Shown here in pieces: positions 117-26,309 of a stretch of 32,009 bases of DNA. The stretch is from Coriobacteriales bacterium. Lineage in GTDB: Bacteria; Actinomycetota; Coriobacteriia; Coriobacteriales; UBA8131. How positions within the stretch are numbered: position 1 is the first letter of the stretch; each line of letters starts with the position of its first letter. A program made the translations under genes and the position numbers. The notes below the pieces were generated by a model. It had not been told where the DNA came from. It searched no databases and saw only the letters and a list, made by a program, of their open reading frames with translations. The stretch lies in contig JAISEO010000090.1 of NCBI GenBank assembly GCA_031264075.1, forward strand, positions 1 through 32,009, read 5' to 3'.

Positions 117-2561
117 CTAAGCTTGTCCTGGAATGGTCTCGGTCCACGAACCGCGCGTGGAAACAACCTCCTGCGGCAGTTCGTCTCCTGCCACGTAGGG
201 ATATATCTTGCAGATCATACTCTTGATGGACGATCCGATGTCGCCCTCGCCGGTCTGCATGACGCGTGTGCAGTTATTGACGTTGGAGTCAAAGACGCCA
301 TAGAGATTGGGCTCGGCCGGCTCGGTCTCGGGGAACCACCAGCCGTGCTCGGCGTGCACGGTCTTCTCGTTGACCTCGCAGCTCAGCTTGGCTATCTGCT
401 TGAAGCGACCCTTGTCATTTTCAACCCAGACCCAGGCGCCGTCCTTGATGCCATAGCTGGCTGCCGTGGCCGGATTGATGGTGACCAGCGGCAGCGGGTG
501 AAACTCGCGCATCGTGGGAAGCTGTCGATGCTCCGAGTGAAAAAATTCGTAGGAGCGCCCGCCGCAGGTGAGTAGCAGCGGGTACTCCTGCATGAGCTCG
601 GGCGTGGAGTAAGGGCTCTCCAGCGGCTCAACATGAAATGGCGTGGGACTCAAACCCCATGCGGTAAATGTAGTAGGTGCAAGTTCTATGCGGCCACTCG
701 GCGTGGCAAACCCAAGTTCTCCGTTGCCGCGCAAGAGGCCCTTCTGGTACTTGTAGTAGGTGGCGTTGAAGCTATCGTACTGATAGCCGCAGGCCTCGGT
801 CAGTCCATCAAAATCCTTGTTGAACTCATCGGCAAAGGCATCGGTGCCGCCTTCTTCGGTGAGTCCACCCATGCCCGTGGCACTCTCGTTGCTCTGGATG
901 AAAGAGCCCGAGCGGAGGTTCAGATACCAGTCTACCAGATCCACGTCGGTTTCAAGCTGGAGTTCGTCAATAAAATACTCAGGATTGAGGCGCCGGCCCA
1001 GTTCGACGATGATCTGCTCGTCGCTTTTGGCCTCGTAGTACTCGCTCACCTTCTTCATCGTGCGCGCGGGCGTCCACCAGGTGCGGGCCGAGTTGCGCTC
1101 CGCGCTCATGGCCACCGGCAGCAGGATGTCTGCGTAGGCAATGGAAAACGGCGTCATGTACGGGTCCACGTTAACCACGAAGGGGCAGCGTTGCAGGGCC
1201 TTGTGTACGCGCGTCGAGTCCTGCGTGGGGCAGGCGATGGTATTGGAACTCTCGCACCAGATCATGTTACACGGGAAGGGATCCTCTGTCTCGAGTGCGT
1301 AGAGCATGCAGTCCGAGTCGGCCAGTGCGATATACTCCGCACCCTTGCGGCCGAAGGTATAGCTGCTCGTGAGCTTTTTGGCGCCCCACTCGGGAGGCAG
1401 TTGGTCCTCACCGGAGGAATACCCGGCGTTGATGTCAAAGGCGTTGCGGGTGAGGATGTTGCCGCCCGGGTTGTCGACGTTGCCGGTAATGGCCATGAGG
1501 TCGCAGGCGCAGAGATTGAGGGCCATGGCGCTCATCTGCTGGTCAAAGGCCAAGCCCCACTGGATGCAGGCCGGCTTTGAGGTGGCAAACAGGCGTGCGG
1601 CCCCACGGATGTCCTCGGCGTTGAGCCAGCACACCTCGGCAGCCCACTCGGGTGTCTTGTCCTCTATGGCCGCCCAGAGCTCATCGAGCCCCGCGCACCA
1701 GTAATCAACGAACTCCTGGTCGTAGAGCCCCTCAGAGATGATGACCTGCAACATGGCCATGCCCAGGGCCGCGTCCGTGCCGGGGCGCAGCTGCAGGAAG
1801 TACTCGGCGCGGGCGCCCCACCAGGTCAGGCGAGGGTCGATGGAGATTATCTTGGCGCCATTCTGCACGCAGGGTACGAGCCAGTGACCCAGATAGCCGT
1901 CGCCATTGGACTTGAGCGGCTCATTGCCCCAGACGATGATGCACTCAGGCACCTTCCACTCGGGATTGTTGTAGCGGTCATCGTGACACACGGCGGCATC
2001 GGCAATCGGAAAATCGCCCAGCGGCGCCATGGAACCGCAGACACGCGGCAGATAGCAGCTGAATCCCGTAAAGCCAAAGGTGCCGATGTTAGGCGTATGG
2101 AATATGGTCTTGGCAGCCCAGGGCACCTGCCAGTTGATATTGCGGCCAGTACCGTGAAATACAAAGATGGAGTTACCGCCATCCTTAGCCCAGATCTCAC
2201 GAACCCTGGCCTCTATGATGTCATAGGCTTCGTCCCAACTGATGCGTTCCCATTCGTTTCCGCCCTTTTCGCCCACCCGCTTCATCGGATACCTCACGCG
2301 ATGCTCACTGTTGATGGACTCCGTGAGGTTGAGGCAGCGCATACAGAGCCTGCCGTCGTTATAGGGCGCGAGTGGATCGCCTTCCACCCGCTCTACCTTG
2401 CCGTCTTTGGTGTAGAGCAGGATGCCGCAGGAATCATGGCAGCCCGGAGGTGAATAGTGGTAGGTGCGCGTGACGGTATAGCCGTCTTCCTCCCACCGCC
2501 ATTCTCCCTCGTGGTAGGCCTCTCGGTTGATGCCGTCCAAAAACTCCTGATAGTCTGTCAT
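117..2561 (-). CDS. Molybdopterin-dependent oxidoreductase (DMSO reductase superfamily, large catalytic subunit); resembles the Eggerthellaceae catechol-dehydroxylase/acetylene-hydratase-like group
   Basis: ORF of ~815 aa with N-terminal Cys motif (GCHDSCGILLYTKDGKVERVEGDP...GRLCMRC), ISWDEAYDII, GNVDNPGGN, HAEHGWWFPE typical of Moco enzymes; no Tat signal. Start may be GTG at 2573 (MSRVMTDY) or ATG at 2561 (MTDYQEF). Confidence 0.9.
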   Translation of the reverse strand: MTDYQEFLDGINREAYHEGEWRWEEDGYTVTRTYHYSPPGCHDSCGILLYTKDGKVERVEGDPLAPYNDGRLCMRCLNLTESINSEHRVRYPMKRVGEKGGNEWERISWDEAYDIIEARVREIWAKDGGNSIFVFHGTGRNINWQVPWAAKTIFHTPNIGTFGFTGFSCYLPRVCGSMAPLGDFPIADAAVCHDDRYNNPEWKVPECIIVWGNEPLKSNGDGYLGHWLVPCVQNGAKIISIDPRLTWWGARAEYFLQLRPGTDAALGMAMLQVIISEGLYDQEFVDYWCAGLDELWAAIEDKTPEWAAEVCWLNAEDIRGAARLFATSKPACIQWGLAFDQQMSAMALNLCACDLMAITGNVDNPGGNILTRNAFDINAGYSSGEDQLPPEWGAKKLTSSYTFGRKGAEYIALADSDCMLYALETEDPFPCNMIWCESSNTIACPTQDSTRVHKALQRCPFVVNVDPYMTPFSIAYADILLPVAMSAERNSARTWWTPARTMKKVSEYYEAKSDEQIIVELGRRLNPEYFIDELQLETDVDLVDWYLNLRSGSFIQSNESATGMGGLTEEGGTDAFADEFNKDFDGLTEACGYQYDSFNATYYKYQKGLLRGNGELGFATPSGRIELAPTTFTAWGLSPTPFHVEPLESPYSTPELMQEYPLLLTCGGRSYEFFHSEHRQLPTMREFHPLPLVTINPATAASYGIKDGAWVWVENDKGRFKQIAKLSCEVNEKTVHAEHGWWFPETEPAEPNLYGVFDSNVNNCTRVMQTGEGDIGSSIKSMICKIYPYVAGDELPQEVVSTRGSWTETIPGQA

Positions 2562-2580
2562 GACTCGACTCACTCTCGTG

Positions 2581-3366
2581 CTAATTTGCCAGCTGATAGC
2601 CGCCGTCGATGACGAGTATGGCGCCCGTCATCTGCTCAGAGGCGGGAGCGCCGAGGTACACGGCGAGGGCGGCAACCTCTATGGGCTCACCAAAGCGGCC
2701 CGTTGGGGTCATATCGAGCCACTGCTCGGCCAGGTCGGCAATCTCGAGTGCCGTCTTGAAATACCCGGGCGCAATGGCGTTGACACGGATGCCGTACTCG
2801 GCCCATTCCCAGGCGAGCATCTCGGTCATATGATTGGCACCGGCCTTTGCCGTGGAGTAGTTGACCATCTTCTGTGGCTTGTTGACGACGAGCCCGGCGT
2901 TGGAGGTGATGTTGATGATGGAGCCGCCGCCCGTGTCGCGCATCTTCTCGGCGGCCATGGCACTCATCATGAAGTAGGCGGTGAGATCCAGCGCAATGAC
3001 CCGGTGCCAGTTGGCAAAGTTGTCCTTGATGTAGCCGATGGCATCATCGCCGCCGCCACAGCCGGCGTTGTTGACCAGCACGTCTATCTTGCCAAAGTCT
3101 GTGACAAAGCCGTCAACCGCGGCCTGGGCATCTTCCTGCCTGGTCTGGTCGGCGCGATAGAACCGGACCTTGACGTCGGGGTATTTGGCCTGCAGGGCCG
3201 CCGCGGCCTTCTCACCCTTTTCCTGGGTGCGCCCCGTAAAGCCAACGTTGGCGCCCAACTCGGCATAGCCATCGGCAATGGCATTGCCCAGACCCTGGGT
3301 ACCGCCGGTGATGAGTACGTTGAGACCCTTGACATCAAAAGCATTCTTGAGTGACGTAATAGGCAT
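2581..3366 (-). CDS. Short-chain dehydrogenase/reductase (SDR) family oxidoreductase
   Basis: 261 aa; TGGTQGLG Rossmann motif, NNAG, YSTAK catalytic motif, C-terminal VIDGGYQLAN. Ends 8-20 nt before the downstream molybdoenzyme start, so probably co-transcribed. Confidence 0.93.
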   Translation of the reverse strand: MPITSLKNAFDVKGLNVLITGGTQGLGNAIADGYAELGANVGFTGRTQEKGEKAAAALQAKYPDVKVRFYRADQTRQEDAQAAVDGFVTDFGKIDVLVNNAGCGGGDDAIGYIKDNFANWHRVIALDLTAYFMMSAMAAEKMRDTGGGSIINITSNAGLVVNKPQKMVNYSTAKAGANHMTEMLAWEWAEYGIRVNAIAPGYFKTALEIADLAEQWLDMTPTGRFGEPIEVAALAVYLGAPASEQMTGAILVIDGGYQLAN

Positions 3367-3563
3367 GAGAGCCTCCTCTTTTCAAACTAGGTATCCGATC
3401 ATCTGAGCTGTAAAGCACCTTATGCATGCTCTTCACTCATTATCACGGGCACGGGGAGTCGTGACCATGAGCTGAAAGACTGAATTGCCTGCCAGAGCTT
3501 AGCCGCAAAGGCTAATATGCGCGCCCTGCGGAGTCCTGTACGCTCTGTGGCAGGCCGCTGCCG

Positions 3564-4952
3564 CTATTTTGGAGCAAGGCTCTCCTGCATGATGCCGAGG
3601 TCCTTTGCCTTCTCGTCGTCCACCCATCTGAGCTTTTTCTTGGTGGACTCGGCAACGATGACCGCGAGGATGCAGACGAGGCCAATGACGATGCTCACCA
3701 CAAAACAGGCAATATAGCTGCCGCCCTGCCAGCCCACGAGAAAGCCATACATGGTAGGCCCGACAAAGCCGATGGCACCGGTGCCGATGCGACACCAGGA
3801 GAAGATCTTGGCGTAGTCGCGGTTGCCGAAGATGCTCCGTATCAACAGCGGGGTGGACACGGCGTAGACGGAGTTCTGCACGCCAAAGAAGAAGCCGAAG
3901 AGGTAGAGCAGCCAGGGCTCCTGATTGAAGAAGATAAAGCCCACAAGGCCCACGATGACCAGCCCGAGCTGGATGATTATGGCCTTGTACACCCCTATGT
4001 AGTCCGTAACAAAGCCCATGACTATCTTGGACGCGATGTTGCCTATCATCACGGCCGAAACGAGTGTTGCGCCAAACATGCGATTTGCGGCAACGTCGTC
4101 ACCATAGAAACCCAGCGAGAAGCCAAAGGGATTCATCTGCGTGCCGAGACTCCCGTAAAAACTCACGAGGCCGCAGAGCAGGAACATACAGAGGAAGGGG
4201 AGGGAGAAGACGGCCACCCTGTTGGCAACGACCCCGGCATTGGGCCCGGCCGCCGCGGCCTTGCTGTGCTTTTGCTCTATCTGCTTTCTGGCCTCTTCCT
4301 CAGACCAGCCATAGGGGTTGAGCCCCATGTCCTCCGGCTTGAAGCGAAAGACGAAGAGGGTAAAGGGCAGTACCATGATGCAGATGACGAGCGCCGAGGC
4401 AAAGTAGGCGGTACGCCAGCCAAACTCGTTGATGAAGAAGGTGAAGAGTATCGAGAGCAGCGCCCCGCCGATGCCGGAGAAACACGACACGATGCCGAGC
4501 ACGAGCGCGCGCCGTTTGAAGAACCAGTTGCCGATGAGAATGGGCACCGGCATGACGAAGATGAAGCTGCCGGCAAGCCCAAAGATGAAGCCGGAGATAT
4601 ACCATTGCCACACCTCCGTATAGAGCCCGTTGATGGCAAAGGCGCCGGCGGTGAGAACGAAGGCCGTCGTGAGCACGATGCGGATGTTGTAGCGGGGCAG
4701 GATATGCCCTATCAGCGGCATGGCTATGATGGTGGCGAGAAAGTACATCGACATGTAGACCATGAGTTCGCCCTGGCGGGATGCCGGGTCATCGCCGAAG
4801 AAGTTGACGTCTGTGGCACTTATCACCGGTTGGACAAAGGCACCGATGCCCGCGTCCAGTATCGCCCCCAAGCCACCTGCCATCATGAAGCAGCAACCTA
4901 TCGCAATGAACCACGCATAGTGCAGTTTGCCTTTTGCCTGTGTCTGTTCCAC
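3564..4952 (-). CDS. MFS transporter (OFA/oxalate-formate antiporter-like)
   Basis: 462 aa, ~12 hydrophobic segments, MFS-type organisation beginning HYAWFIAIGCCFMMAGG. Confidence 0.88.
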   Translation of the reverse strand: MEQTQAKGKLHYAWFIAIGCCFMMAGGLGAILDAGIGAFVQPVISATDVNFFGDDPASRQGELMVYMSMYFLATIIAMPLIGHILPRYNIRIVLTTAFVLTAGAFAINGLYTEVWQWYISGFIFGLAGSFIFVMPVPILIGNWFFKRRALVLGIVSCFSGIGGALLSILFTFFINEFGWRTAYFASALVICIMVLPFTLFVFRFKPEDMGLNPYGWSEEEARKQIEQKHSKAAAAGPNAGVVANRVAVFSLPFLCMFLLCGLVSFYGSLGTQMNPFGFSLGFYGDDVAANRMFGATLVSAVMIGNIASKIVMGFVTDYIGVYKAIIIQLGLVIVGLVGFIFFNQEPWLLYLFGFFFGVQNSVYAVSTPLLIRSIFGNRDYAKIFSWCRIGTGAIGFVGPTMYGFLVGWQGGSYIACFVVSIVIGLVCILAVIVAESTKKKLRWVDDEKAKDLGIMQESLAPK

Positions 4953-5090
4953 CGTCTGTTCACCTGGCCTATCTGGTTTGATAACGCTTTGCAGGAACCG
5001 TACATCAACGCAGCCACTCTAACAGTTGGCGGACAGACTAGCCATAGGGCTACAAACCCTAAAGCAGCTGATGCACTTAGCTTGACAGTG

Positions 5091-5118
5091 CTATTATTGG
5101 CGCCTGAACAGGGGTCAA
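5091..5118 (-). promoter_or_regulatory. Candidate promoter for the MFS-SDR-molybdoenzyme unit
   Basis: On the minus strand TTGACC (5118-5113), 16-bp spacer, TAATAG (5096-5091), upstream of the MFS start. Match by eye only. Confidence 0.35.
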
Positions 5119-5220
5119 ACAACAGAGGCTAACCCGTTTGGTTGTAAGAGGGCTCTATTAGACCAAAAGGATGAGTGGCAGTATTAGGCCTCTCACCCTT
5201 TTCAGTCGAGCAGTGCGAAA

Positions 5221-5265
5221 CACAGGAGGGGCCGGCGGTTTTGTGCCCTCACCGTCCCCTCTGTG
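5221..5265. repeat. Second imperfect GC-rich inverted repeat next to the 5305-5360 palindrome
   Basis: CACAGGAGGGGCCGG (5221-5235) against CCGTCCCCTCTGTG (5252-5265); flanked by TTTTC on the + strand. Confidence 0.5.
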
Positions 5266-5304
5266 TTTTCAAGCCCCGGTCTTGTAGCCCCGGCCCTGGG
5301 GAAA

Positions 5305-5360
5305 GGGGGGACGGGGCAACTGTGCCATCAACGCCAGTGGCACAGTTGCCTCGTCCCCCC
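5305..5360. repeat. Long REP-like palindrome (23-bp arms, 10-nt loop)
   Basis: GGGGGGACGGGGCAACTGTGCCA / TGGCACAGTTGCCTCGTCCCCCC, one mismatch; lies 8 nt beyond the FKBP stop. Confidence 0.85.
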
Positions 5361-5367
5361 CCTGCCC

Positions 5368-5808
5368 TCAGGGATCAACAATGTCCACGAGTTCGATCCA
5401 GTACTCCAGTTCCTTGCCGGCAAGGGGGTGATTGAAGTCCACCTTGACATAATCCTCTGTGGCTTCAAGCACCCGTACCGGCAGCGTTATCCTGTTGAAG
5501 GGGTTCTCCCAGGAGAGGATGGAACCCACTTCCAGTTCGTCACCATGGGGAATCATAGTGCGGGGATACACCTGCACACCCTCGGGGTCGTGGTAGCCAT
5601 AGGCCTTCTCCGGTACGATGCGCAGGGTACGCTGATCCCCTGGCTCCATCTCATAGAGGGCCTCATCGATGCCGGGAGGCACGGCGCCGGTGCCGATGAC
5701 CACACGGTCCGGCTCTGCTTCCAGATACACGTCAACCGGCTCCTCGCCTGCCGCACCTCCGCTGTATCGGATGAGCGCGCACCTTCCAGAACGTTCCAGC
5801 TTACGCAT
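5368..5808 (-). CDS. FKBP-type peptidyl-prolyl cis-trans isomerase (SlyD-like, no His-rich tail)
   Basis: Residues such as GAVPPGIDEALYEMEPGDQRTLRIVPEKAYGYHDPEGVQVYPRTMIP and DFNHPLAGKELEYWIELVDI fit SlyD/FKBP. ATG at 5808 overlaps the upstream gene's stop (ATGCGTAA), so I prefer it to the ORF-track start at 5838. Confidence 0.87.
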   Translation of the reverse strand: MRKLERSGRCALIRYSGGAAGEEPVDVYLEAEPDRVVIGTGAVPPGIDEALYEMEPGDQRTLRIVPEKAYGYHDPEGVQVYPRTMIPHGDELEVGSILSWENPFNRITLPVRVLEATEDYVKVDFNHPLAGKELEYWIELVDIVDP

Positions 5809-6289
5809 CGGTGAGCATCTCGTCCACACGCTGGTCACCGCGCTGGGCGGTCATGCGCTCGGCGCTGGCGTTTTCCTCCACCTCAAAGTGGGCGGCCTTG
5901 CGCGCACCCTTGGCCGGGTCATGGACAAACGGGCCGCGGGCCTCATAGGGCTTGTACTGCGGCACCCAGAGCACCTGTTTGGTCTTGCTGTCCAGCTTGC
6001 GGGCAAGCTCCTCCACGGTGCCATAGCTCATGACATTGGCCAGGCAGTGGTGTACGCAGATAGGCTCCCTGCCCGTGCTGGTACGCTCGGCGCACAGATC
6101 GCAGAGATCGGTGGGAACAGGAATCTTGTTGAAGTTGAAGCGATGCTCCTCTATCTCCCACGGGCCGTCATCAAAGACACGGATGCCAAACTTGCCCACG
6201 GGATAGTCATGCTCTTCCTTGCACGTGACCTGGCAGACCTCGCAGCCGGTGCAGTATTCGTAATCTATCAGGAGTCCATAGTGTGCCAT
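5801..6289 (-). CDS. Ferredoxin-like 4Fe-4S subunit of molybdopterin oxidoreductase (two clusters predicted)
   Basis: 162 aa; CTGCEVCQVTC and CDLCAERTSTGREPICVHHC (8 Cys). Starts immediately after the catalytic subunit stop. Confidence 0.88.
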   Translation of the reverse strand: MAHYGLLIDYEYCTGCEVCQVTCKEEHDYPVGKFGIRVFDDGPWEIEEHRFNFNKIPVPTDLCDLCAERTSTGREPICVHHCLANVMSYGTVEELARKLDSKTKQVLWVPQYKPYEARGPFVHDPAKGARKAAHFEVEENASAERMTAQRGDQRVDEMLTDA

Positions 6290-6291
6290 GA

Positions 6292-8649
6292 TTACACCAA
6301 CTTTCCAAACTTGTCCCAGACCTCTGCCATGTTTGTGTCATAGCTCTTCTCCAGGGGCTTGATGTTGCAAATGCTGCACTTGTAGGGGGCACCAAAACCT
6401 ATCTTGCCCTGAAAGCCGTTGGGAAGGAGGTTATTAACGTTGGAGCGGAAGGTATGGTACGGGCCGTTGGCGTCCTTGTCGTCGGGCTCGAGCTCGGGGA
6501 ACCACCAGCCGTGCTGCGTGTGGATGGTCTTCTCGTCCACGGCCTGCGTGATCTTGGCCTTATAGACGGCAGAGCCGTAGTTGTTGTAGACCTCACACCA
6601 CTGGCCGTTGGCGATACCGAGGCGCGCGGCCACGAGGGGATGTATCTCCACGAGCGGGTCGGGGTTGAGCTCACGCAGAAGCGGAATCTGGCGATGCTCA
6701 CTGTGGAAGAAGGCATAGGTGCGGGCACCCGTGGTGAGTACGAAGGGGTACTCCTTGAAGAGATCCGGTGTGGAGACCGGTGAGAAGGGCGGCTCCTCGT
6801 AGTAGGGCAGGGGGTCGTCGCCAAACTGGTAGAAGGCGCTGGAGTACAGCTCGATACGGCCCGAGGGCGTGTTGAAACCCAGGTTGCCGTCGCGACGCAG
6901 GCTGCCACGCTCATACTTGAAGTAACTGACATCCTGCTGGAGGGTCACTTCCTTGTGCAGCTCGTCATAGGTGTACTGGCCGCCCAGGCGCAGATCGTTG
7001 ATGAAGTCGTACACGTCGTTGTACTGCTCCCACATATGCGGATTGAGACGCTTGCCCAACTCAAAGGCTATCTGCAGGTCGCTCTTGGAGTTGATGGGCT
7101 CAATGGCCTTGTTGCAGGCACCAAAGTACAGCGGGGCGGCCCCATACTCGGCAAAGAGGCAGCCGTCGCGCTCGACCACCGTGGCAAGCGGCAGAAATAC
7201 GTCGCAGGAGGCCTGGGCGGACGGTGTCATGAAGCAGTCCACACAGATGCAGAACTCCAGCGAGCGCAGGATGGCGTCATGCCAGCGGCGCGGCTCGCCC
7301 GAGGTGCAGGCCATGAGGTTGTTGCCGGTGTAGAGGCCCATGCGTACCGGATAGGGCACGTCGGTTTCCAGACATTCAAGGGCGAGGTCGGCCTGCGCGT
7401 TGAGGATCATGTTGCAGTAGCCGGGGTATTCCTTCATGCCTATCATCTTGGCGCCCAGCTCGGCCCCGATGCCCTTGTCAAAGCCAAAGCCGCCCTCGTT
7501 GAGGCCGGAGTTGATGTCACCCACCACCTGGCCACCGGGGCGGTCGATGTTGCCGGTGATGGCCATGAGGGCGACGACGGCCTGACCGTTCTGCATGCCG
7601 TTCTTCTTCTGATCCACGGCAAGACCCCAGAGTACACCGGCCGGCTTGGCCGTGGCATACATGCGGGCCGCTGCCTTGAGGTACTCAACATCGATACCGC
7701 AGATCTCCGCTGCCTTCTCGGCCGGCATCTCCGCGGCGCGCTCGGCCAGGGCCTCAAAGCCGTAGCACCAGTACTCGACAAAGTCCCTGTCGTAGAGTTC
7801 TTCCTTGATGATGGTGTCGATCATCGCAAGCGCCAGCGCGGTGTCCGTACCCGGACGCAGGCGCAGATGGTAGTCGGCGTGCGAACTGAGCCAGGTCACG
7901 CGCGGATCCACGCTGATGAGGCGCGCACCGCGCTTCATCAGGTCGGTGACCGCGTGGCCAAAGAAGCCGTCGGGGTTGGAAGGCAGTGGCTCCTTGCCCC
8001 ACATCATGATGACCTCGGGCACCTCATACTCCGGATCGTCGTAGCGTCCGGGCAGGGCGGCGGCATAGTCCAGCTCGGGATACGGAATGCCCGTGATATA
8101 GGCGCTGGCCGCCAGACGCGGCGTGTAGCAGGCATAGCCGCTCTGCGAGTAGCAGAAGTTGGGCGTGCAGAAGCTCATCGTGGCATAGGGCAACAGCGTG
8201 CCACCCTCACGGCCGGTACCGACGAAGATTATCATGCTCTCGCGGCCATACTGCCCCGTGATACGCCTCCACTCGCTCTCGATGAGGTCGTAGGCCTCAT
8301 CCCAGGTTATCTCCTCCCACTTATCATCCTGACCCCGGTATTTTGGGTCTCGCTTGAGGGGCTGTTGGATGCGCGAGGGATTGTAGACGTAGTCCTTCAT
8401 CGTGATGCAGCGCGGACACAGACGGCCCTGCGTAACGGGATGGTTCTCGTCTCCTTCTACCTTGACCAGCCTGCCGTTGTCATCCACGTACAGCTTGAGT
8501 CCACAACCCACCGGGTGACAGCCGGGAGGTGTCCAGATGCTGGAACGGGTGACCGTGAGCCCATCCTCCTCGTAGCGCCAGGGCTTACCAAGATCGTTGA
8601 CATCGGATAAGGTGTCCAGCGGCAGTGCCGGTGTAGCCTTTGTCTTCAT
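6292..8649 (-). CDS. Molybdopterin-dependent oxidoreductase (DMSO reductase superfamily, catalytic subunit)
   Basis: 785 aa; GCHPVGCGLKLYVDDNGRLVKVEGDENHPVTQGRLCPRC, ITWDEAYDLI, GNIDRPGGQ, HTQHGWWFPE. Clear paralogue of the 117-2561 gene. No Tat signal. Good RBS (AAAGGAGCG) upstream. Confidence 0.92.
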   Translation of the reverse strand: MKTKATPALPLDTLSDVNDLGKPWRYEEDGLTVTRSSIWTPPGCHPVGCGLKLYVDDNGRLVKVEGDENHPVTQGRLCPRCITMKDYVYNPSRIQQPLKRDPKYRGQDDKWEEITWDEAYDLIESEWRRITGQYGRESMIIFVGTGREGGTLLPYATMSFCTPNFCYSQSGYACYTPRLAASAYITGIPYPELDYAAALPGRYDDPEYEVPEVIMMWGKEPLPSNPDGFFGHAVTDLMKRGARLISVDPRVTWLSSHADYHLRLRPGTDTALALAMIDTIIKEELYDRDFVEYWCYGFEALAERAAEMPAEKAAEICGIDVEYLKAAARMYATAKPAGVLWGLAVDQKKNGMQNGQAVVALMAITGNIDRPGGQVVGDINSGLNEGGFGFDKGIGAELGAKMIGMKEYPGYCNMILNAQADLALECLETDVPYPVRMGLYTGNNLMACTSGEPRRWHDAILRSLEFCICVDCFMTPSAQASCDVFLPLATVVERDGCLFAEYGAAPLYFGACNKAIEPINSKSDLQIAFELGKRLNPHMWEQYNDVYDFINDLRLGGQYTYDELHKEVTLQQDVSYFKYERGSLRRDGNLGFNTPSGRIELYSSAFYQFGDDPLPYYEEPPFSPVSTPDLFKEYPFVLTTGARTYAFFHSEHRQIPLLRELNPDPLVEIHPLVAARLGIANGQWCEVYNNYGSAVYKAKITQAVDEKTIHTQHGWWFPELEPDDKDANGPYHTFRSNVNNLLPNGFQGKIGFGAPYKCSICNIKPLEKSYDTNMAEVWDKFGKLV

Positions 8650-8902: not shown

Positions 8903-11900
8903 TCACGCACTCCCACCTTCACGCTGCCTCTTGCGTGCGAATATCACAAAGGCGGCAATCGCCGCGCCCGCGATGAGGAGCGCCAGTGGCACGACGACGA
9001 GCAGAAACGCGGTGGTGTCCTCCTGCACCTGACCCGTGTTTGCCGTGTCGTCCTCAGCTTCGGGCGTGTTGGCCACACTGTCGCGTAGCGCGGGGCCTGC
9101 GTTCTGCTCGCTCGCCGCCGAGGCGGAGGCTTGGGAGTCAGGCTCTACAGCAGCGCTCTCGGTGGTCGTGGCCGCCGTGTCAGCCGCTGCCGCCGTGCCA
9201 GTATCTACCGGAGCCGGGATGTTCTCGGGAGCGGGGCCCGCATCCCCTGTTACGGGTGTTCTCGCTACGGCAAAGCTCGCGTTGCCGCTTCCCGCCCGAT
9301 AGCCGTCGTCAAAGTGCGCAGCCACGTTGAAGTTGCCGTTGTCGAGGCTGTCTACAAAGGCAGGGCTCAGCTCCACGATGACACTGCCGCTGCGAACGGT
9401 GCCGATGCTGCTTCCCCTCAGGCTGAGACTGCGACTACCGTCTGCGGCGGGTATGCCGAGTGTCGTATCCTCATCGTTGAAGGTGACACGCGTCAGCGTT
9501 TCGTGCTCCCCCTTGATACGGATGGTAACACCGATGCCGGTCTGGTTGATGCCTCCCTCAGCAGAGTTGGAGAGCAGCGGGTGGTCGTGGGCGAGTGCCG
9601 CGCCTGCCGCCTGGAGTTCGGCGAGGAGTGCCTCTGCCGCGCCCTCGGAGAGTGGCGGAGCTGCGGGATCCAGGGCAAGCTCCACGGCGGCCTGCGCCGT
9701 ATAGAAGCGCTTGAGGTCCCATTCCGGATAGTTCTCCGCGCCGAGTTCTACCCTGGGCCGTATGGTGTTCGTAGCGGCGAGTTCTTCTGTCCCCAGAGCC
9801 TGGGTCACCTCTCTGCTTGCCGTGACCGCCAGCTTCGCCAGCACACGCGACGCGCTGTAGTCCTGCCCGTAGAGGGAATCGTCAGGGGTAAACAGCGCCC
9901 AGGCGTAGTAGACGCCGTCCCTGCTGACGTCATAGGGCTTGCCAAAGCCGTCGGTGCTCGTGGCGTGTCCCGTGCTCACGCCGGGGACGCAGGACACGGG
10001 GTCTGCCTCCTCCCAGACGAAGCTGCCGGTGAGGGGGCCGTCTTCCACATCCACACCGAGGGGTGCTCCGTGCGGCGTGGAGTTGCTGAGCGACTCACCA
10101 AAGCGCAGCGCGCTTGCCACGATAATCCCCTCTGTCCACACGGGCTCGGCCGGACTGATGTCTGCAAATGCCTGTGCGGGCGGTGCGAGGGAGTAATTGT
10201 GGGCATGGGCGCCGGTGAGCGCAAAGCCCTGGAAGGTGACGGGCTTGGCCTCTTCCGCGTGCGCGTCGGTAAAGCTGGCCGAGGCAGCTGCTGTATCGAG
10301 CGCGACGCTGTCGGTTGCGTGTATGCCCTTGAGGAGGGCGTCCTCGGCGTTGAAGTCTGCCTCGGTGTTTCCGTCGTAGACCTTGCTCTCTGCCCTGATG
10401 CCGGAGACGGTGAGCTCACGTTGCGTGATATCCGCGGTGACCACCGTGGGCGTGTCGTCTTCTGGCCTCAGCCTGGGCTGGTCGTCGGTGAGGAGGTAGT
10501 GAGGAGCCTTGGTACCTGAGAGCGCAAAACCCGAGAAGCTGACGGGCTTGGCTGTGCCTACCTCTGTTGCCAGCACCTCGCCTGCGTCCACAAAGACCGC
10601 ACTGCCCACACTGATGCCGAGCGAGCCGCCGTCACCTGGTACCAGGCCTGCCACCGTATAGCTGCCATTGAGCGGCGCTGTGTCGGTGCCGTCATAGACG
10701 CGAGTGTCGGGAGCAGCTTCCCTGGGCGTGTAGGTGAGCTCGACGGGCCGCCTCTCCACGCTGAGACTGATGCGGACATCGTCGCCTCTGCGGGCATTGT
10801 AGTTGGGGCTTTCTGCACGCTCAAGGTAGAGGTTCGTAGAACCGGTGGCAAGGATGGTGACCGTGCCGTCTGCGCTCACCTCGGCCACAGAGCTGTTCGC
10901 GCTCCGCCATTCCCAGGTTCCGGTGCCGGAGCCACCGAGGGGATAGAGCTTGAAGGGCGCGTCGCCATAGGTTTTGGTAAGCAAGCTGGCAGCCGTGCCG
11001 CCCTCCGTGAGACTGATAGCGAGCGGATCCTGCTCTGCCTTTGCTATGCTGTAGGGGGAGAGGGTACCCTCTGAGGTTGTGTAGTCGGCATCTCCCGAGT
11101 AGACAGCACGCAGCATGTGGGTACCTGCACCGAGGGAGGTGGTCTGAAGTACTGCTCTGTCAAAGGGGTCGTCTTCTACCTTCTCCTCGCCGAGGAGCGT
11201 GGTGCCGTCCCCTCCGCCGTAGAAGGTAACTGTGCCTTTGGGGGCTGGGGTGCTGTCGGGGCTTGGAGAGGTAACGATTCTCGCTGTGAGCTTGACAGGC
11301 GTGCTGTAAGAAGCGCCTTGGGCAGGCTCTACGCTGAGGGAGACCTTGGTTCCCGCCTTTTCTATAGCGAGTTCTATGAGTGTCTGGGCCGGTGTATCGT
11401 TTCCTGTACCTGTGGCGCCTTCAAAACTCACACCACGAGGCGCATAGGAGACACAGAGGGTATAGGGCTCCTCGCGCGCAACGAGGGAGGACAGGTAGGT
11501 AGAGGCAGGCTTCAAGGTGAGGGTGCTCGATGCTATCGCGTAGTCTGTTCCCAGAACAAGCGGATGGTTGCCATCTGAGGTGTTCACGACGGAGGCCACG
11601 GTGTTACCGTTAAGCGTAAGTGCAGGGGCCACATCGACACCCGATTGCCCGAAGCGTATGAAAGTCGCTGTGGCACTTGCCGGTGTGCTGTCTTCGTAAT
11701 AGACGATGCCCTCGCTTCTTATGGCGGTGGTGTTACCTGCGCTGTCCGTTACGCGTACGTAGACCCTGTAGGTGCCAAAGTCAGGCAGGGTGGGGGTAGG
11801 AGAGCCCGCAGTCCATGGTTCCCATGTCTGGACCGGGTCATCTGCTGCCTCTCCTGCGTCTGCGAACAGAGGGGAGCCTTTGGGATTCTCTGCGTGGATG

Positions 11901-14900
11901 AGGTACTCGATGGTGGCCACACCTGAGCGGGTGTCTGTAGCTGAGAGGGCAAGCGTGGGAGCCGCTCCCTTGTAAAAGCGTGTGAAGCCCTCTGTGATAT
12001 CAAAGCTGTCGTAAACCTCGCCGCACACGGTCACAGAGGCCGCAGGCGCTGTGGTGTCATAGCCTATGGTGGCTTCCTGGGCCTGCTCGACATTACCAGC
12101 TTCGTCCACCGACCAGTAACGTATGGTGTGCAGTCCCTCGCTTCTCATGTCCAAGGTGAAGGGGACGGTGTATTCTGTGGAAAGGGCATCGTCGTCTATC
12201 CGGTAATAGGTCTTATCGACGATGCCGCCATCAGCGTCTCCCGCCCTCACATCAAAGTCTGTGACAGAGAGCGCTATCGTCTCACCAGCCTGTATCCACG
12301 AGCCGCTTACAGGGTTCACGGTCGTTACCGGGGCCACACCGTCGGTGTAGGTGGCGGTGAGGGTCACAGGCTCTGCGGGCATGCTGATGGTACCCGAGGC
12401 GCTCAGAGGCAGGGGTATCGCGGTGTCAACAGTCTGGGTCCAGGAGTGGAACTTCCAGCCTGCCTCAGGTGCCGCCGCCGCCAGGGCAACGGGCGCCTCT
12501 TCCGCAAAGACCCCTTTACTCGTCTGCGTGTTGGCGGGGATGCCGTAGGGGCTCTGTGCCGTGGGACGGGCAGAGCCTCCCGGGCCGCGGTCAAGCGTGA
12601 GGGCGTAGGTGGGCGTGATGCCCGTGACCTCGAAGGTGGCCTGGGCGAGCGTGTTATTGGAGAAGACTACGGCAAGCCGGTAGCTGCCGTTTGTCCGTGT
12701 CCAGTCTTCGTTCAGGGTAAAGACGAGCTGGTCGGTAAGATAAGTGGGATGGGTGGGGTCGTCTGAGAAGCGGAACTGATTAGGTCCGCCGGATGAGATC
12801 GTATAGTTTGCTGCAGCAAGTGAGATGAGGCCCGCTCCGTCTCCGGGTGAGTCAAGGTAGACCTCCCTTATCGAGACAGCGTTCCCAGAAGACCCGAGAT
12901 CGGCGCTCGTCTTGAGCGACAGTGCCGGTGCCACATACGAGGAGGCAGCAGAGAGGGCAGGAAGCACCTGGAAGCCTTCCATGTCCATGAGGTAGTTGAA
13001 GCCCGTACCGCCGTCAAGGATGTAGGTGGGGGCTGCAAGCCGCTGGCCTCTTACGATGTCGCCTGTTACGGTTACCGCATCGATGTCAAAGCTGGGGATG
13101 GACAGCCTGGCATTGCTCACAGATTTTGTGAACAGATTCTCATCCAGCGTGAAGAACACCCGCCACGTCCAAGTGTATTTTACCTGCAAGCTACCCTCGG
13201 TGCGCGGCTCGGAGTCCGCGTCCACGAGATAGATTGCGACAATGTCAAGACCTGGTATGGACAACCCGTCCTTATCGGTGAGTACGACAGGGCCTGTGTA
13301 GGGGCTCGAATCGCCGTTGTCCTGGATGCCGCCCTTTTCCGCTGTGTCTGCGAGTAGGGGATGGAAGGCAATGGGAACAGGGAGGCCCTCTGTGGCCTCT
13401 GTGGGCCGCTCCAGTGTGAACTGGATGATGTTGGAGGCGTAGTCCTCAAGCGAGGGCATGACACGGGCGCTCTCTATGGCGCGCGGCACGGTGATGGGGT
13501 ACACGGCTGAGATATAGTTGTGGCTCTGGCCGTCCACAACCTGGTCGGCGTTCTGTTTCTGGTAGGTATCAAGCTTGCCATTGAGATCGAGCCGTACGAC
13601 GACCGAGGCATTATCGCCTGTCTTGACTGCGGACGAGGCGGGTGCAATGTCTATGACGTAGTAGGTGTTGCCCGCTGTCTCGCCTGCATTGGCAAAGTCG
13701 GTGACACCCGGCTTCTTCACGACCGCGCTGTTTACCACTACCTCATCCCAGCTGAGGCCTCCCACTATGGGGTAGGCAAAGCTGAGTGTCATGGTATCGG
13801 ACACGCCGTCGCCATCCTCATCGCTGACGGCCACACCGTCGGGAGCAAACTCGGCCTTGGGGTGCACGGTGAAGATGACCGGCTGCTGTTCGGCTGGTGT
13901 CCCGTCACTGTAGCTGGTCGTTATCTCAGCCTCGTGCAGCCCGGGGGCAAGGCCAGACTGAGGTTGGATAGTCCAGGTATTTCCCGAGCCGTCAAGTGTG
14001 AACCAACTCGGCGCCGAACCTAGATTCGACCCTGTCCATGTTACGCTCGCAACGGTTCCCGCGACATGGACGGTCTGGGCTGCGAGGTCAGGGTCGGTGA
14101 GCTCGTAGCCCTGCAACTTGGCGTCAAAGCGCACCTCGGAGTAGTCATGGACGTAGAAGGCCGTGGCGGGTGAGGAGAACGAGCCTACCACACCCTCTTC
14201 TTCTGCCACTGCCGCCACGCGTATCGTGTAGCGCCCACCGCTAAGGTAGCCGCTGAGTTCGACGCTGGCGTCTGTGGTGATGTTGTCTGGGACTGGCAGC
14301 CAATCTCCATACGTAGGCTCGCCATCCTCGCCGGTCGTACCAACACGGTACTCATAGGCGGTATCCGCTGTAGCGTTGGTGACGGTGACGACGCTTGGGT
14401 CTGTGCTACTGGTCGGGTTATGTACGTTCACGGTGGGCTGTGCGGGACGCGTCGGTATCTCAAGCACCTTGGCAGCGGAGTCCACGGTGGCCGTTCCGGC
14501 CATCTTGATGATGTCTATGTCCTCGCCGAGCCAGGTGTCGTTGATGGGATAGCTGCCGCTGTCTGAGGCCTGTCGGGGGGTGTGGCCGATGCCCTCACTG
14601 GTGTTGCCGACGGAGTACCACGCAAAGGGAATAAGCCCTGCTATCGTGCGGTTGAGGTAGTCTATGTACGCATCAGGCGTGGCCTCCGGCACGGGCCGGA
14701 AGAAGGTGATGTCCTCACTGGCAGAGTCTCCCGCTATCCGGTAGGAATGGGTGAGCGTGCCCTCCTCGGCACTCCAGCTCTGCACGGTGAGGGCGCCGAC
14801 AAGCTCCGTGCCGTTGGCAAGCGGTGTGCCGGTGGCCGACTCGGGCCTGATGGGGATGAGCCAGGTGGCCGAGCTGCCATCGGGAGCGGGATCTACGGCA

Positions 14901-17900
14901 TGGGCGTAGTCGGTCTGGAAGATGGCGGCGTCAAGCTCAAAGGCCAGATTGGCACGCAGAAAACCGCGTACAGGATAGTCAAAGGTCACGAGTATGCCCG
15001 TGGAGGCGAGTGTGCCGTCCTGTCCGCCGGTCTGAACCGCGTCTACAACAGCTACGCTCACCGGTGTCATGACGTGTGTTGCCTTGTAGGCTGCCCTGTT
15101 GCCCGCCTCGTCTTCTACCACGACGTTAAACCAGTAAGAGGTGTTGGGGGCAAGTCCCTCGATGGTGAAGCTTGCAGTTTCTCCCCCGAGGTACCTCGAG
15201 CCGCCTTCGTTCACGGGCTCGCCGCCATGCTCTACGCAGTCCTTGGGGCTTTCCATGTCATCGCTTACCGAGGCATGGGCGTAGACGTAGTAGAGGAGGT
15301 CATAGCGGTCTGTGAAGGTGTTTTCGTCTGAGGCTTGGGTGCAGAGGAGCTCTATGCTCCAGGTCGGGGTCTCGCCCGAGGTATCTTCTGTGGGAGCGGA
15401 GGTCGTAAGCCTGCCGTCGTTCCCGGGCACGGGTGGTGTCGTCTCCTCGCTTACCTGCAGGGTGAGGCTTGTGAAGGCCACGTTGTAGTTGTTATCCGCT
15501 GCCTTCGTGAGCGTGAGGGTGGTGGTGCCTGCACTGACGAAGCTCACGGTGGCGTTGTCCCCGGAGGGCGTTATGGTGGCAACACCGGGGGCAGAGCTCT
15601 GCCAGGAGTAGGCGCCAGCGCCCTGACCGCCCGCAGCGGTGAGGGCAAGCGTCCGCGTCTCACGGGCCCGGGTGACCGTCGTGCCGGAGACCGTCTCGCT
15701 CTCCTCCTGTATCACGAGGCCGCTCTGACTGGCGGGGCTTACCGTGTAGGAGCCGAGGGCGCCCGAGCCTCCCGTGTAGTTGGTATCGCCCGTGTATTCG
15801 GCATGGATGGCCGGGTAATTGCCTGCGCCGAGCGTGACCGTGACGGATGCGGTGCCCGCGTCAGACAGGGCGAGAGCGCTCCCCGCAGCAAAGGGGCTTC
15901 CCGTGCCCGCGTCGGCGTAGAAGGTGACGGTGCCGGTGGGAGCAGCACCTGCGTTTGCAACGCTCGCGGTAAGCGTGACGTTGTCTGTGCCATAGGTGGC
16001 AGACGAGGCCGGTGTGGCTTTGAGCGTGACCTCCGGGCTGGCCTTGTCCACGTTGAGCGCTATCTCTGTGGTGGCCGGCGGGGTGTTGAGGTCGGCGCCT
16101 GCGCTTCCCCGGTTGTCGGGTGTGTAGGCCTCGCCCTGGGGCTTGTAGGACACGGTGAGGGTGTAGTTACCTGCGGCAAGGTTTTCCAGGTAGGCCGCCT
16201 TGAAGATGAGGGTGTCTCCTGTGTCTCCTGCGACGTTGTAGTGGGTGCCAGGCACAAGCAGGACCTCCCCGTTTCTGACCTCTGCCACCGTGTTGCCGTT
16301 AAGAGCCACGGTAGCCGGCTGGTCTACGCCGGAGAGCTTCGTGTAGCTGATGTTTTCTGTGACTGCCGCGCTGTCGTGGTAGATGATGATGCCGTCCCGG
16401 TAGTAGGAGGTATTGCCGGCCCAGTCGCGCAGCTTGACGTAGAGGATGGTCTTTTCGGCAGTGGCGAGAACGAACGTGGCTTTGTCCGCCTCGGCTCCCG
16501 CAAGCCAGAAGCTGTCCGGCTTGCCCAGGAGTTCCGCGAGGCTCAGTGCTTGAACGGAGCGCTGGTAGAAGACCCGCTCCATGCCGTCACCGCCCTCGTC
16601 GGTGGCCTGAACCGCCACAGAAACCGTGCCCTTGAAGAAGAGCTGGCCGAAGGGATCTTCGATGGTGCCGTCCTCTGAGCTGCCGCCGAGGAAGCCCATT
16701 GCGCCTCTCGGGTCGTAGTTGATGGTGGCCTCAGGGGCTACGCCGTCGCGGTAGACCTCGATGCTCGTGCTGTGGGGCGTGAACCCTCCGTTGTCCACCT
16801 GATAGCCTGCCCAGTCTGCGACCGACACCGTAACCGTGCCGCCCTGCACACCGGATACGGCAAGGGAGTAGTCCTGCCCACTGCCGGAAAGCTCGCCCTT
16901 CACCGCACTGCCCGTGCCATTCGTGAGGGTGATGCTGTCTGCGCTGAGGTCGGCGACTTCCTCGTCGAAGCTGAGACTCAGGTCCGTCGTGGTCTTGACG
17001 TTGGGACTGCCTCCCGTGCCGCCTGCCTGCGCCGCGGTGAAGGACACCATGCGTGTGGCGTAGACGTCAAGCGCGTAGTAGACAGCGGTGGTGTTGTCTT
17101 CTGCGGAGGTGGTACGCAGGTACAGGCGTGTGGGCCTGGCTCCCCAGGCTATGGTCTGGGTGTCGGAAAGCTCTGTGCTGAAGCCAGCGTTCGTGTAGAG
17201 TCTGGCTGCGGCAGTGCCGCCCGCTGTGCTCTGGCCCGCAAGCGTGAGGTCACCGAGGGCAAGCGTGCTCTCTCCCGGGGCAAGGTGTACGGCGAGGACC
17301 GCGGGCTCTGCGGAGGCAAGCCCCTTGGAGGCCGTGGTATCGTCTGCGCTCAGGGTGGCGGCGTGGCCGTTGGTCGCAACAGCGCTCACCGTGGGGCGCA
17401 CTATCCATTTTGCGTAGAAGACCTCCCCGTTCGTCGGTGCCGCGTTGCCGGGGGTCTGGGCCTGAGTCACGGGGCTTCCCGTAAAGCTGCCGTTGTCATA
17501 GCCTGCCGTGTCATACCAGCCCTTGAACACGTGGCTCCGGGACGTGACGGAAGCTGCCGCGGGGAGCGCAAGCGGGCTCACGTTGTAGGCGTGGTCGTAC
17601 TCGCCCGGCCGCGCGAGGTCGGTGGAGGCAATCCAGCCGGAGCCGGAGGGCAGGGCGATGTAGCTGGGGAGGGCTTTTTCGTCCGGGTCGCCTGTGAGCG
17701 CGGTCTTCGTGTGCACGGTGACCGTCGGCTTGTCCGAGCCCACCGTCACGCTCTGTATCTTCGAGGCGAAGCTCTCTCCCGGCGGTATCCTCACTTCGTA
17801 GCGCCCCGCCGTGACGTCCACGGAGCCGGAGGCCGTTCGCCAGCCATCCGTGACATTGGCGCCGTTGCGGCTGACGCGGTACTGGAAGGAGCCTGCGTAC

Positions 17901-20900
17901 TCGATACGCCCGTTGGAGGCGGTGTCGTCCGCGGCGTTTCTCGTAGTGATGCCCGTTGGGGCCGCGTCCTTACCGGCAATGACAAGCGGTGCGGAGGTGG
18001 CAGATGCCGGGTAGGTGCCGTCGGTAAGACGCGTGAGGGTGAGGGAGACAGGGCCTGCCTCAGCTGCGGCAGAGAGCGAGGCGTTGTTTGCCACGGTCGT
18101 GCCGTTCAGGGTGAGCGTGTAGTTCGCGGGGCTCACGCCACTCACAAAACTGACGGTCTCACCGGCGTAGTCCATGCGGAGCAGCGCCTGAGGTGAAGGC
18201 GTGGCAAAGGCAGTGTGCACGGTCTGGGCTATGGAGACCGCCGCGCTCTGGTTGTGGTTGTCGTCTGACCGCGCACGCACGAAGGCGCGGTAGGTACTCT
18301 GGGCGTTAAGACCCGTGAAGGTGTAGCTGGTTTCGTCTTTCTCATCTTTCCAGCTGCCGCTCGCCTCACTGAAGCTGAAATAAGCTGAAATAGGCCCTGG
18401 GGGGAAACCGCCCGTGAGCTTGATGGTGAAGCCGTCAGCGCTTATGTCGGTTACCTCCCCGGTCAGGGCGCTTATGTCCCAGTCAGCCTTTTCCACGGTG
18501 AGGTAAGCATTGGAGGTGGCGGTGTAGGGCTTGGCGTCATCACCCTCGCCCACGGTATAGTTCACCTGTATGATGGGCTGGAAGCTGCGTGCATGAAGGG
18601 GGACATAGAGAGGGTGAGGCTCGATGGTCCAGGCGGTGTTCTCACCGTAGGCTCCCACGGTCTGCGGCTCGGTTGGACCGTTCAGTATGAAGAACCCACC
18701 ATCATCGGGCAGAAGCGTAACAGCGTTTATCTCCAGAGTGACAGGCTTATCGGTGATGTTATGGATGGTGAGAGGCGTGGCTGCAAAGGTCTCGCCGTAG
18801 ACAAGCTGCCCGAGGTTCAGACTCTCCACGTAGAGCGGCGAGGATACCATGATGGAGAACGAAGCGGGGGCTTCGGCTGTGGCCGCATAGCGGATGTCGT
18901 AGTCGGCAATTCCCTCACCATAGGGAAGCGTCGCCTCGCCAGAGCTGATGTAAGCGAGGGCACGCCAGGTGTTGTCCGTATTCGTCTTATACTCGTAATC
19001 GAGCTCGTCCTCAAGCCCGGTGATGGTTATCGCCGTGCCCTCGCTTATCACCTCAGTCCCAAGGCCCGCAGGTGCTGCGGGGCGTTCACCCACGGTGGGT
19101 GTGGCCTCCCTGGAGGCAAAGCGCAGGGCGCCGGGATCGGCGGCAAGGCGCAGCCGTACCGTCCGCGGCGTTGCTTCTCTCCAGCCAAGTTCCGCAAAGG
19201 ACACCGAGGTGCCGGATTCAAGTGCCGTCCATGCCTCCGAGAAGGGCTGTAGCCACGCGAGGGCTGCAGACGAGATGAGCGTCTCCGCGGCGTAGTCGAT
19301 GCGGTAAGACTCCTCCCCAGGGGCGGCGGGGCGTGCGGGCACACTCACCGTGCGTTCGGGGCGTACGGCCGGCCCTGTGTAGGCGGTGTCTGCCGGGGCA
19401 CGGTAGGCCACCGTGAGTGCAGTGTTGCCGCTTGCCCCCAGCTCGTCGAGCGCGTCGAAGAGGCTCATGGTGGAGAAGGTCCCACCGAGCAGAGCTTCAA
19501 TCCTCGCTCCCGCTACGACACTCGCGTCATCGAGCTCGAGCCGTCCGGTGCCGGTGAAGCTGGCCCACTCGCCCTCTCCTCCGACGAGCCAGGCGCGCTG
19601 ACCCTGCCACTGCGAGTAGGCCTGGTACTCGGTGTTCGCAGGCACGGGGTCGGTACCCCCTGTTCCCGCTCCCACGGCGGAGGCGCTGTAGTCCTTGTCG
19701 AGCAGCACGTCCGGGTAGGGGTAGACGCGCACGCCGGGGAGCCAGGCGCCCTTCGCGGGGCTTGCCATGAGCTGGTAGGCGCGGGCGGAGTCAAGATTGG
19801 TGAAGGAGAGTGCGTCGCCGGTGGAAGAAGCGCTCTGCACGATGGCACCCGTGGCGGGGTCGGTAACGGCATAGGTGTAGCCTGGCTGTGCGGCCTCGGC
19901 TGCCAGGGTGATGGTCGTGCCGCCGCCATCACGAAAGACCGCCTCGGGGCTGATGTCTGTGGCCTCGGCCTCAGGGGTGGTGATCCTCAGCGCCGCGAGC
20001 GTGCCTGCCTCGTCAAAGGCGGCGTCCGCGTAGCCTATTTCCGTGTAGCCCGCGGGGCGCGCCACGAGATAGTAGCTCGTAGCGGGCCTGAGGTTCTCGA
20101 AGGCGAGATCGCCTCCCGTGCCCGGGGACCACTCCGTGCCGCCCTCAGACGCGGTGCCCGCGAGCGCGGGGGCATCGGTGAGGGGCCGGGCGTCCTCCGG
20201 ATTTTCTGTAACGGAGGCGGGGTCCTCCGCGAGCAGGGCGTACTGCACGGCGGCGTTGGTGTTGAGGAGGGTGAGGCGCACCTGTCGCGCGCCCTCACCG
20301 TAGAGCTCCATGCTGTAGGAGGGCAGCGCGGCGTCCGCGCCGCCGGAGGCCGGCACGAGCTTGGCGTCACGGTAGTAGCCGTTGTCGAGCACGGCGCCGG
20401 GGCTCATGTTGGTGCGGAGCCCTTCGTTGATGGCGCCCTCAGGGATGCCGATGATGCGGTAGGTCTTACCCGGGGTGAGGTCGTGGAAGCTGAGGATGCC
20501 GGTGTCGGTGAAGGGCGTGCCCTCGCCGTAGCTGGAGTACCAGCCGCCCGAGCCGAGGCCCGCTGTGGGACTGACGGCCACCGGGGAGAACCCGCTGCCC
20601 GCACCATCTGCGTCGTAGGTGGCGGCAAGGCCCGTGAGTTCATTGACCGACGAGCCGCGTACCTCGGCGAGGGCGTAGGCGAAGCCTGCCTTGGTGGTGG
20701 TGGAGATCGAGTTTTCGCCGGTGTAGGTGGCTTCCTGCTGAGGCTCAAGCTCGGTGCCTGAGGCGAAGGTGATATTGTCGAGGATGTTGCCGCTGGCACC
20801 ACCTGCCGGTGATGACACGGAAATGAAGCCGAACACCGTTGTGCCCTGACCCGCAGGCACAGTGTAGGAACCTGTCCGATGTACGAAATTGCTATCCCTT

Positions 20901-22246: not shown

Positions 22247-22373
22247 GTCATAACCCCTTCTTATGCTCCCTGTCGTATGCCGCCTCTCCCGTTGTGCCCT
22301 GTGCTCGTGTGTACTGCCTGCGTGCGTCTTTCCCACGGCAAAACAGAATGCGTCCTGTTTGCATACACCAGCT

Positions 22374-22401: not shown

Positions 22402-22581
22402 GCCCCTGGGGGTATTTCTCACAGAATCTTCACATAGCGCCCGCCTCAGTTCAGGGCTCCTTTGACAGGCTGCCGTTTGCCAGCTGATTTGCGAAAAATC
22501 CTGAGTTTTGCTACCGTAGGGGGTCTTGGGTGCAACATACCTGTTTGTATCAGCACAATCGAGAAAAGGCCGAGGGACAAC

Positions 22582-25771: not shown

Positions 25772-25840
25772 TATAATGACCTCATTAAGCTTGGGCCTGC
25801 CCAAGAGTATCCCCCCGCTTCGGCGGGGGTGAATTCTTTT
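25772..25840 (+). ncRNA. Candidate short transcript: extended -10 promoter, small hairpin, terminator-like hairpin
   Basis: TGCTATAAT (-10 at 25772-25777), perfect 7-bp stem CTTGGGC-CT-GCCCAAG (25790-25805), terminator-like stem (25812-25829). Confidence 0.3.
25812..25840 (+). terminator. Rho-independent-like terminator after the LuxR pair
   Basis: CCCCCGC-TTCG-GCGGGGG followed by TGAATTCTTTT; the T-tract is not immediately adjacent to the stem. Confidence 0.7.
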
Positions 25841-26237: not shown

Positions 26238-26309
26238 CAGGTATACTCCCAATCGCCTACAGCATTCGTCAACAGATCGCATAAGCAATATTGGCTCGGA
26301 ATGCATGTG

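Follow-up and report, generated by a model that had tools for sequence, protein, structure and literature searches.

The window, that is, the whole 32,009-nucleotide stretch of DNA analysed here, is an entire contig (C28) of a 2.18-Mb parent genome assembled in 105 contigs. It carries a block of six minus-strand genes, transcribed in the order MopB-A, Fe-S subunit, FKBP, MFS transporter, SDR and MopB-B, and the contig stops 117 b past MopB-B, at base 1 (Table 1). The original prediction had described two molybdenum-cofactor (Moco) enzymes, an MFS transporter, an SDR and a ferredoxin-like subunit on one strand, and these open reading frames proved real and correctly placed. The FKBP gene (5368-5838) and a pair of LuxR-type regulators (22462-25720) were absent from its inventory.

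Table 1. Features of the putative catechol dehydroxylase locus and its surroundings, in window positions
Feature	Position	Strand	Remarks
MopB-A, predicted Gordonibacter-type catechol dehydroxylase catalytic subunit	6292..8649	-	785 aa, no Tat/TM; Pfam, tree, active site, fold
Fe-S small electron-transfer subunit, two [4Fe-4S] motifs	5801..6289	-	162 aa, 8 Cys
FKBP-type peptidyl-prolyl isomerase, probable dedicated folding factor	5368..5838	-	Pfam; kept neighbour of MopB-A orthologs
Palindrome, 30-bp arms	5298..5367		Directly after FKBP stop; REP-like family
MFS transporter, presumed substrate importer	3564..4952	-	Pfam
Classical SDR	2581..3366	-	Pfam; TGGTQGLG, NNAG, S-YxxxK
MopB-B, predicted second catechol dehydroxylase catalytic subunit	117..2573	-	818 aa; tree, active site, fold
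LuxR-type regulator 1, N-terminal membrane domain	22462..24201	+	
LuxR-type regulator 2, membrane domain	23771..25720	+	ORF start over-extended; true start near 24203
4477-aa surface protein gene, outside the system	8903..22336	-	Between MopB-A and its regulators

Pfam supported every gene assignment except that of the Fe-S subunit, which scored below its Pfam cut-off; the cysteines of this protein fall into two motifs (13, 16, 19, 23 and 63, 66, 78, 82). The conserved start of MopB-B is probably the ATG at 2561, and the true start of FKBP probably lies slightly downstream of the annotated one, which overlaps the Fe-S gene. Spacings within the block are short: 2 nt between MopB-A and the Fe-S gene, an overlap or abutment between the Fe-S gene and FKBP, and 7-19 nt between SDR and MopB-B. 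FKBP and MFS are separated by 415 nt, beginning with the palindrome, and the block may therefore be expressed as two transcripts. The palindrome folds strongly (-66 kcal/mol for a 91-nt stretch, z -6.2) and is a member of a genome-wide REP-like family, its pattern being matched 33 times in the genome, frequently by inverted pairs, versus 0 for a reversed control. It is possibly a transcript-end or stability element. An Rfam search of the window gave no match, and a promoter scan found nothing above chance. The MFS protein is distant from lactate, monocarboxylate and bile-salt transporters.

The gene block is real and far beyond chance, because at least four other genera (genomes G008, G001, G015 and G013) carry the same block, with MopB-A 79-89% identical. 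Within the family of the window, MopB-A orthologs (79-96% identity) were found in six other genomes, and in four sister genomes the order MopB-A, Fe-S, FKBP, MFS, SDR, MopB-B is kept, together with two LuxR genes. The SDR is 81-95% identical across the sister clusters. Three same-genus genomes (71-87% complete) gave no match at E 1e-50. In the sister genomes, the LuxR pair normally stands beside MopB-A on the opposite strand, in divergent orientation. In the window it is parted from MopB-A by the 13.4-kb gene of the surface protein (YDG, Big_3_5, CBM_X2 and InlB-like repeat domains), which is not there in the sister loci. A PemK/MazF-like toxin gene (25839-26306, minus strand) lies downstream of the regulators.

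The six other genomes with MopB-A orthologs are MAGs of Coriobacteriales/Eggerthellales, and their isolate codes include Cf509, Rs511 and Roe453. Judging from these codes, which we read as termite host codes, they are probably termite-gut MAGs; a termite MAG survey that reports the actinobacterial family UBA8131 (PMC9137090) fits such an origin. Related blocks occur in Gordonibacter pamelaeae, Gordonibacter sp. 28C, Gordonibacter sp. Marseille-P2775 and Raoultibacter timonensis, where MopB-A (63-67% identity), Fe-S and FKBP genes are accompanied by MopB-B-type enzymes with their own Fe-S and MFS genes. The G. pamelaeae block, at 3.4606-3.472 Mb in strain DSM 19378, lies within a region at 3.44-3.51 Mb, which is probably the hotspot of 11 uncharacterised catechol dehydroxylases (CDHs) reported near (-)-eddh (PMC11887054).

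As judged from sequence, both MopB proteins are cytoplasmic CDHs of the Gordonibacter type, additional members of an already known family. Neither contains a Tat motif or a transmembrane segment, as the original prediction had held for Tat signals, and both agree with the description of this type as cytoplasmic, Tat-less proteins of about 750-850 aa (PMC7028382). An MFS gene and a LuxR-type regulator also lie nearby, as described for such clusters (PMC12771579). In a FastTree phylogeny of 195 sequences and an IQ-TREE phylogeny of 50 sequences that included the respiratory enzymes of the same genome (E. lenta Dadh was left out), the two proteins fell inside one CDH clade (SH 0.998 and UFBoot 100, respectively). 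MopB-B grouped with a pair identified as (+)-Eldh1/2 (UFBoot 100), and MopB-A with the probable Gs Vadh (UFBoot 99). Support was weak (SH 0.51, UFBoot 78) for the node that connects the MopB-A and Eadh/Eldh sides, each of which contains probable characterised CDHs. The acetylene hydratase row used in this placement is partial, having been reassembled from alignments. The dehydroxylase-like class assigned by the original prediction is thus upheld, and the placement among respiratory reductases that it had named as one refutation did not occur.

The characterised CDHs in these trees were recognised from their genomic context rather than by accession. The (+)-Eldh1/2 candidates are an adjacent G. 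pamelaeae pair, 73.8% identical to each other and separated by an assembly gap; the published pair, GPA_25800/25810, is 74% identical (PMC11887054), and its locus tags are consecutive because the Fe-S gene between the two was lost in the assembly gap. The Eadh pair was recognised by the PF04909 decarboxylase that it flanks (PMC12771579). For Gs Vadh, the candidate is a MopB of strain 28C (C12) with an Fe-S gene, genes for two CitMHS-type transporters and a LysR gene after it. Two other LysR-adjacent MopBs of this strain (L160 and L162) were rejected, as the two-transporter locus fits better. Since CDHs are highly substrate-specific and the identity of MopB-A and MopB-B to characterised CDHs is only 37-47%, a substrate cannot be transferred from any of them.

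That the two proteins are ordinary respiratory reductases of a small inorganic or S-/N-oxide acceptor appears extremely improbable. Their best curated profiles are indeed the generic Fdh, PhsA and DmsA models, but the scores lie far below the NCBIfam cut-offs for DmsA, TorA and PhsA (for DmsA, 207 versus 777.7 bits), whereas the DmsA of the same genome passes the curated cut-off (985) and branches far from both. Moreover, a Tat signal and an NrfD/DmsC anchor gene are missing from the locus. The same absence bears on the kinship with Eggerthella and Gordonibacter dehydroxylases originally proposed: the Gordonibacter half stands, and the Tat-exported, membrane-anchored Eggerthella type does not apply. 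Eggerthella-type CDHs (Dadh, Hcdh, Cadh) share the reaction class, but differ in having Tat signals, membrane anchors and TorD/NapGH-like accessories (PMC7028382, PMC11887054), all of them absent from the window locus. The genome has 23 molybdopterin-binding-domain matches, and eight of these were of CDH type in the trees (two in the window, three on C74, two on C50 and one on C53).

The nearest solved structure for both proteins is acetylene hydratase of Pelobacter acetylenicus (2e7z), the top fold match (TM 0.82 for MopB-A and 0.75 for MopB-B) at about 30% identity. The AlphaFold models had mean pLDDT values of 80.5 and 78.7, with low confidence at the Fe-S loop, and for this reason they do not settle how the cluster is ligated. 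In an alignment with acetylene hydratase, the Mo-ligand cysteine (Cys141 of the hydratase) was kept in 33/33 CDHs (C174 in MopB-A and C173 in MopB-B), and Arg606 was retained in both proteins. The likeness might suggest that a small unsaturated compound is hydrated or undergoes some other non-redox reaction, a reading that we consider scarcely credible. The essential Asp13 of the hydratase is replaced by His in all 33 CDHs (His45 and His46 in the two MopBs), Lys48 by Arg and Ile142 by Tyr in both, and the adjoining gene for a partner with two clusters, a feature that sets the MopBs apart from the hydratase, implies electron input.

The Fe-S region differs as well: both MopBs are without the first Fe-S cysteine of acetylene hydratase, and an added cysteine two residues past the fourth is present in 31/33 CDHs versus 0/15 other enzymes. 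The resulting motif derived in this analysis, C/D-H-x(2-3)-C-x(27-28)-C-x2-C, is present in both proteins, and we propose it as a sequence signature of the CDH clade.

Pyrogallol transhydroxylase (TthL), in contrast, is remote. For MopB-A it gave E 5.9e-13 versus 1.9e-79 for acetylene hydratase, it was not among the sequence matches listed for MopB-B, and it ranked 19 and 38 in the two fold searches. The twofold kinship suggested by the original prediction thus survives for the hydratase, albeit with the catalytic Asp absent, and fails for the transhydroxylase. Gallate fermenters combine a transhydroxylase with a ring reductase, and two MopBs with one SDR resemble this logic, the more so as no other accessory gene of the sister clusters is as conserved as the SDR. 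By analogy, the enzymes might move hydroxyls rather than remove them, with a phloroglucinol-reductase-like SDR feeding ring cleavage. We regard this as quite improbable: apart from the distance to TthL, both enzymes lie inside the CDH clade, the cluster contains no ring-cleavage gene, and the PDB matches listed for the SDR do not name phloroglucinol reductase.

An Fe-S gene follows the MopB-A orthologs in 35/36 loci. For MopB-B, the downstream sequence was long enough in five termite-lineage loci (L032, L033, L036, L038 and L041), and none of them has an adjacent Fe-S gene, whereas the orthologs of the Gordonibacter/Raoultibacter type have their own in 4/4. The termite-type MopB-B may thus share the Fe-S subunit of MopB-A, or it may use one encoded elsewhere.

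FKBP is a second regular companion of MopB-A, lying within 1.5 kb downstream of 32 of the 34 orthologs with enough sequence, as against 0/44, 1/19 and 2/64 at other CDH groups (3/127 in total), all counts being taken from related loci and hence not from independent events. G. pamelaeae has seven FKBP genes, five of them no more than 5 kb away from a CDH gene (binomial P 7e-5, a value that ignores paralog clustering). In the genome of the window, the FKBP matches outside long frames on C85 and C66 number three, all adjoining CDH genes (one on C28 and two on C74). A literature search for FKBP together with catechol dehydroxylase found no paper that mentions both. FKBP is a probable dedicated folding factor for MopB-A.

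Taken as a whole, the locus is in all likelihood a polyphenol-dehydroxylation operon that would combine import, an SDR step and two reductive hydroxyl removals, a reading supported by family membership, cofactor-site residues, the lack of export signals and the conserved gene linkage. The MFS transporter would import a small molecule bearing a catechol or pyrogallol group, and the SDR would oxidise or reduce a side-chain alcohol or ketone using NAD(P)H. In the cytoplasm, MopB-A (together with its 2x[4Fe-4S] partner) and MopB-B would each take off one aromatic hydroxyl reductively, presumably in turn, at a cysteine-ligated bis-MGD molybdenum centre, the compound serving as electron acceptor; the order of steps and the electron flow are likewise our suggestion. 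The two membrane LuxR proteins may sense the compound, and FKBP may aid the folding or maturation of MopB-A. Homology to assayed enzymes supports reductive C-O cleavage at Mo, with electrons arriving via small Fe-S subunits. In the mechanism proposed for CDHs, the para-OH binds Mo, and tautomerisation is followed by oxygen transfer with rearomatisation (PMC7028382).

The two catalytic subunits could instead act on different compounds, the locus being two single-enzyme units, MopB-A/FeS/FKBP and MFS/SDR/MopB-B. The 415-nt gap with its strong palindrome falls between these units, and MopB-A and MopB-B are apart in two genomes, G003 (on separate contigs) and G006. We hold this to be rather unlikely, since the two remain adjacent in several genera, Gordonibacter and Raoultibacter among them, and the termite-type MopB-B, without an Fe-S gene of its own, is placed with that of MopB-A. 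Under the favoured reading of a joint dehydroxylation operon, a further conjecture may be offered tentatively, as one that could well be wrong. The MopB-A orthogroup would depend on its own FKBP for folding or cofactor maturation, as Tat-exported types do on TorD-like chaperones, and one termite-lineage 2x[4Fe-4S] subunit would serve two catalytic subunits, giving a two-step, SDR-coupled dehydroxylating respiration of a wood polyphenol.

Several known systems resemble the locus in part. The (+)-Eldh1/2 system of G. pamelaeae (PMC11887054) likewise has paired cytoplasmic CDH subunits and the same Fe-S motif, and MopB-B belongs to its clade at 45-47% identity. However, the Eldh proteins are 74% identical sisters, whereas identity between MopB-A and MopB-B is only about 40%, and MopB-B goes with an SDR and an MFS gene and, in its lineage, without an adjacent Fe-S gene. 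The eam cluster of Gordonibacter sp. 28C (Eadh1/Eadh2; PMC12771579) also has two CDHs without signal peptides, an MFS transporter, a LuxR regulator and small 4Fe-4S partners; in place of its decarboxylase, Eah, the window cluster has an SDR and FKBP, and identity to Eadh is just 37-43%. Gs Vadh of the same strain (PMC11887054; assigned by context) is the closest probable characterised relative of MopB-A (44%), but its unit has a LysR regulator and CitMHS-type transporters and is without FKBP, SDR and a second CDH.

The window cluster was rejected as the ellagic acid (eam) locus, as Eadh orthologs sit elsewhere, on contig C50. There, genes at 71751-74408 (L175) and 82751-85387 (L176) encode orthologs 66-69% identical to both probable Gordonibacter Eadh enzymes, and a PF04909 decarboxylase gene (81122-81874; L181) adjoins one of them. 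By sequence, this bacterium, which probably comes from a termite gut, appears to hold an eam-like cluster for ellagic acid/urolithins on C50. On contig C74 (891-11693; L042), three further CDHs (A3, A2 and B2 types) stand in a row with Fe-S, MFS and two FKBP genes. MopB-B2, located on C74 in this genome, instead adjoins the LuxR pair in sister genomes. Genes of the URO-D family (methyltransferase-like) and of the metallo-beta-lactamase fold lie beside MopB-B2 in termite-type MAGs (L031:444-2431, L034:15060-17155 and L042:12331-13263); on C74 itself, only the metallo-beta-lactamase-fold gene of these two kinds is present. These neighbours possibly serve O-demethylation of methoxylated aromatics ahead of dehydroxylation. 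CDH-clade enzymes also occur in Moorella, Sporomusa and Candidatus Formimonas (L111, L113, L116 and L118), and the enzyme on C53 (L179) is 59-62% identical to this acetogen group.

A literature search combining catechol dehydroxylase and termite turned up one paper that mentions each once, and no relevant paper on termite-gut polyphenol dehydroxylation. The linkage of FKBP to MopB-A offers a concrete explanation for the difficulty of producing cytoplasmic CDHs in standard hosts. An uncharacterised CDH group, common to human-gut Gordonibacter and probably termite-gut Coriobacteriales, is now placed in a defined, conserved operon with its accessories, and this points to polyphenol dehydroxylation as a component of the chemistry of the termite gut.
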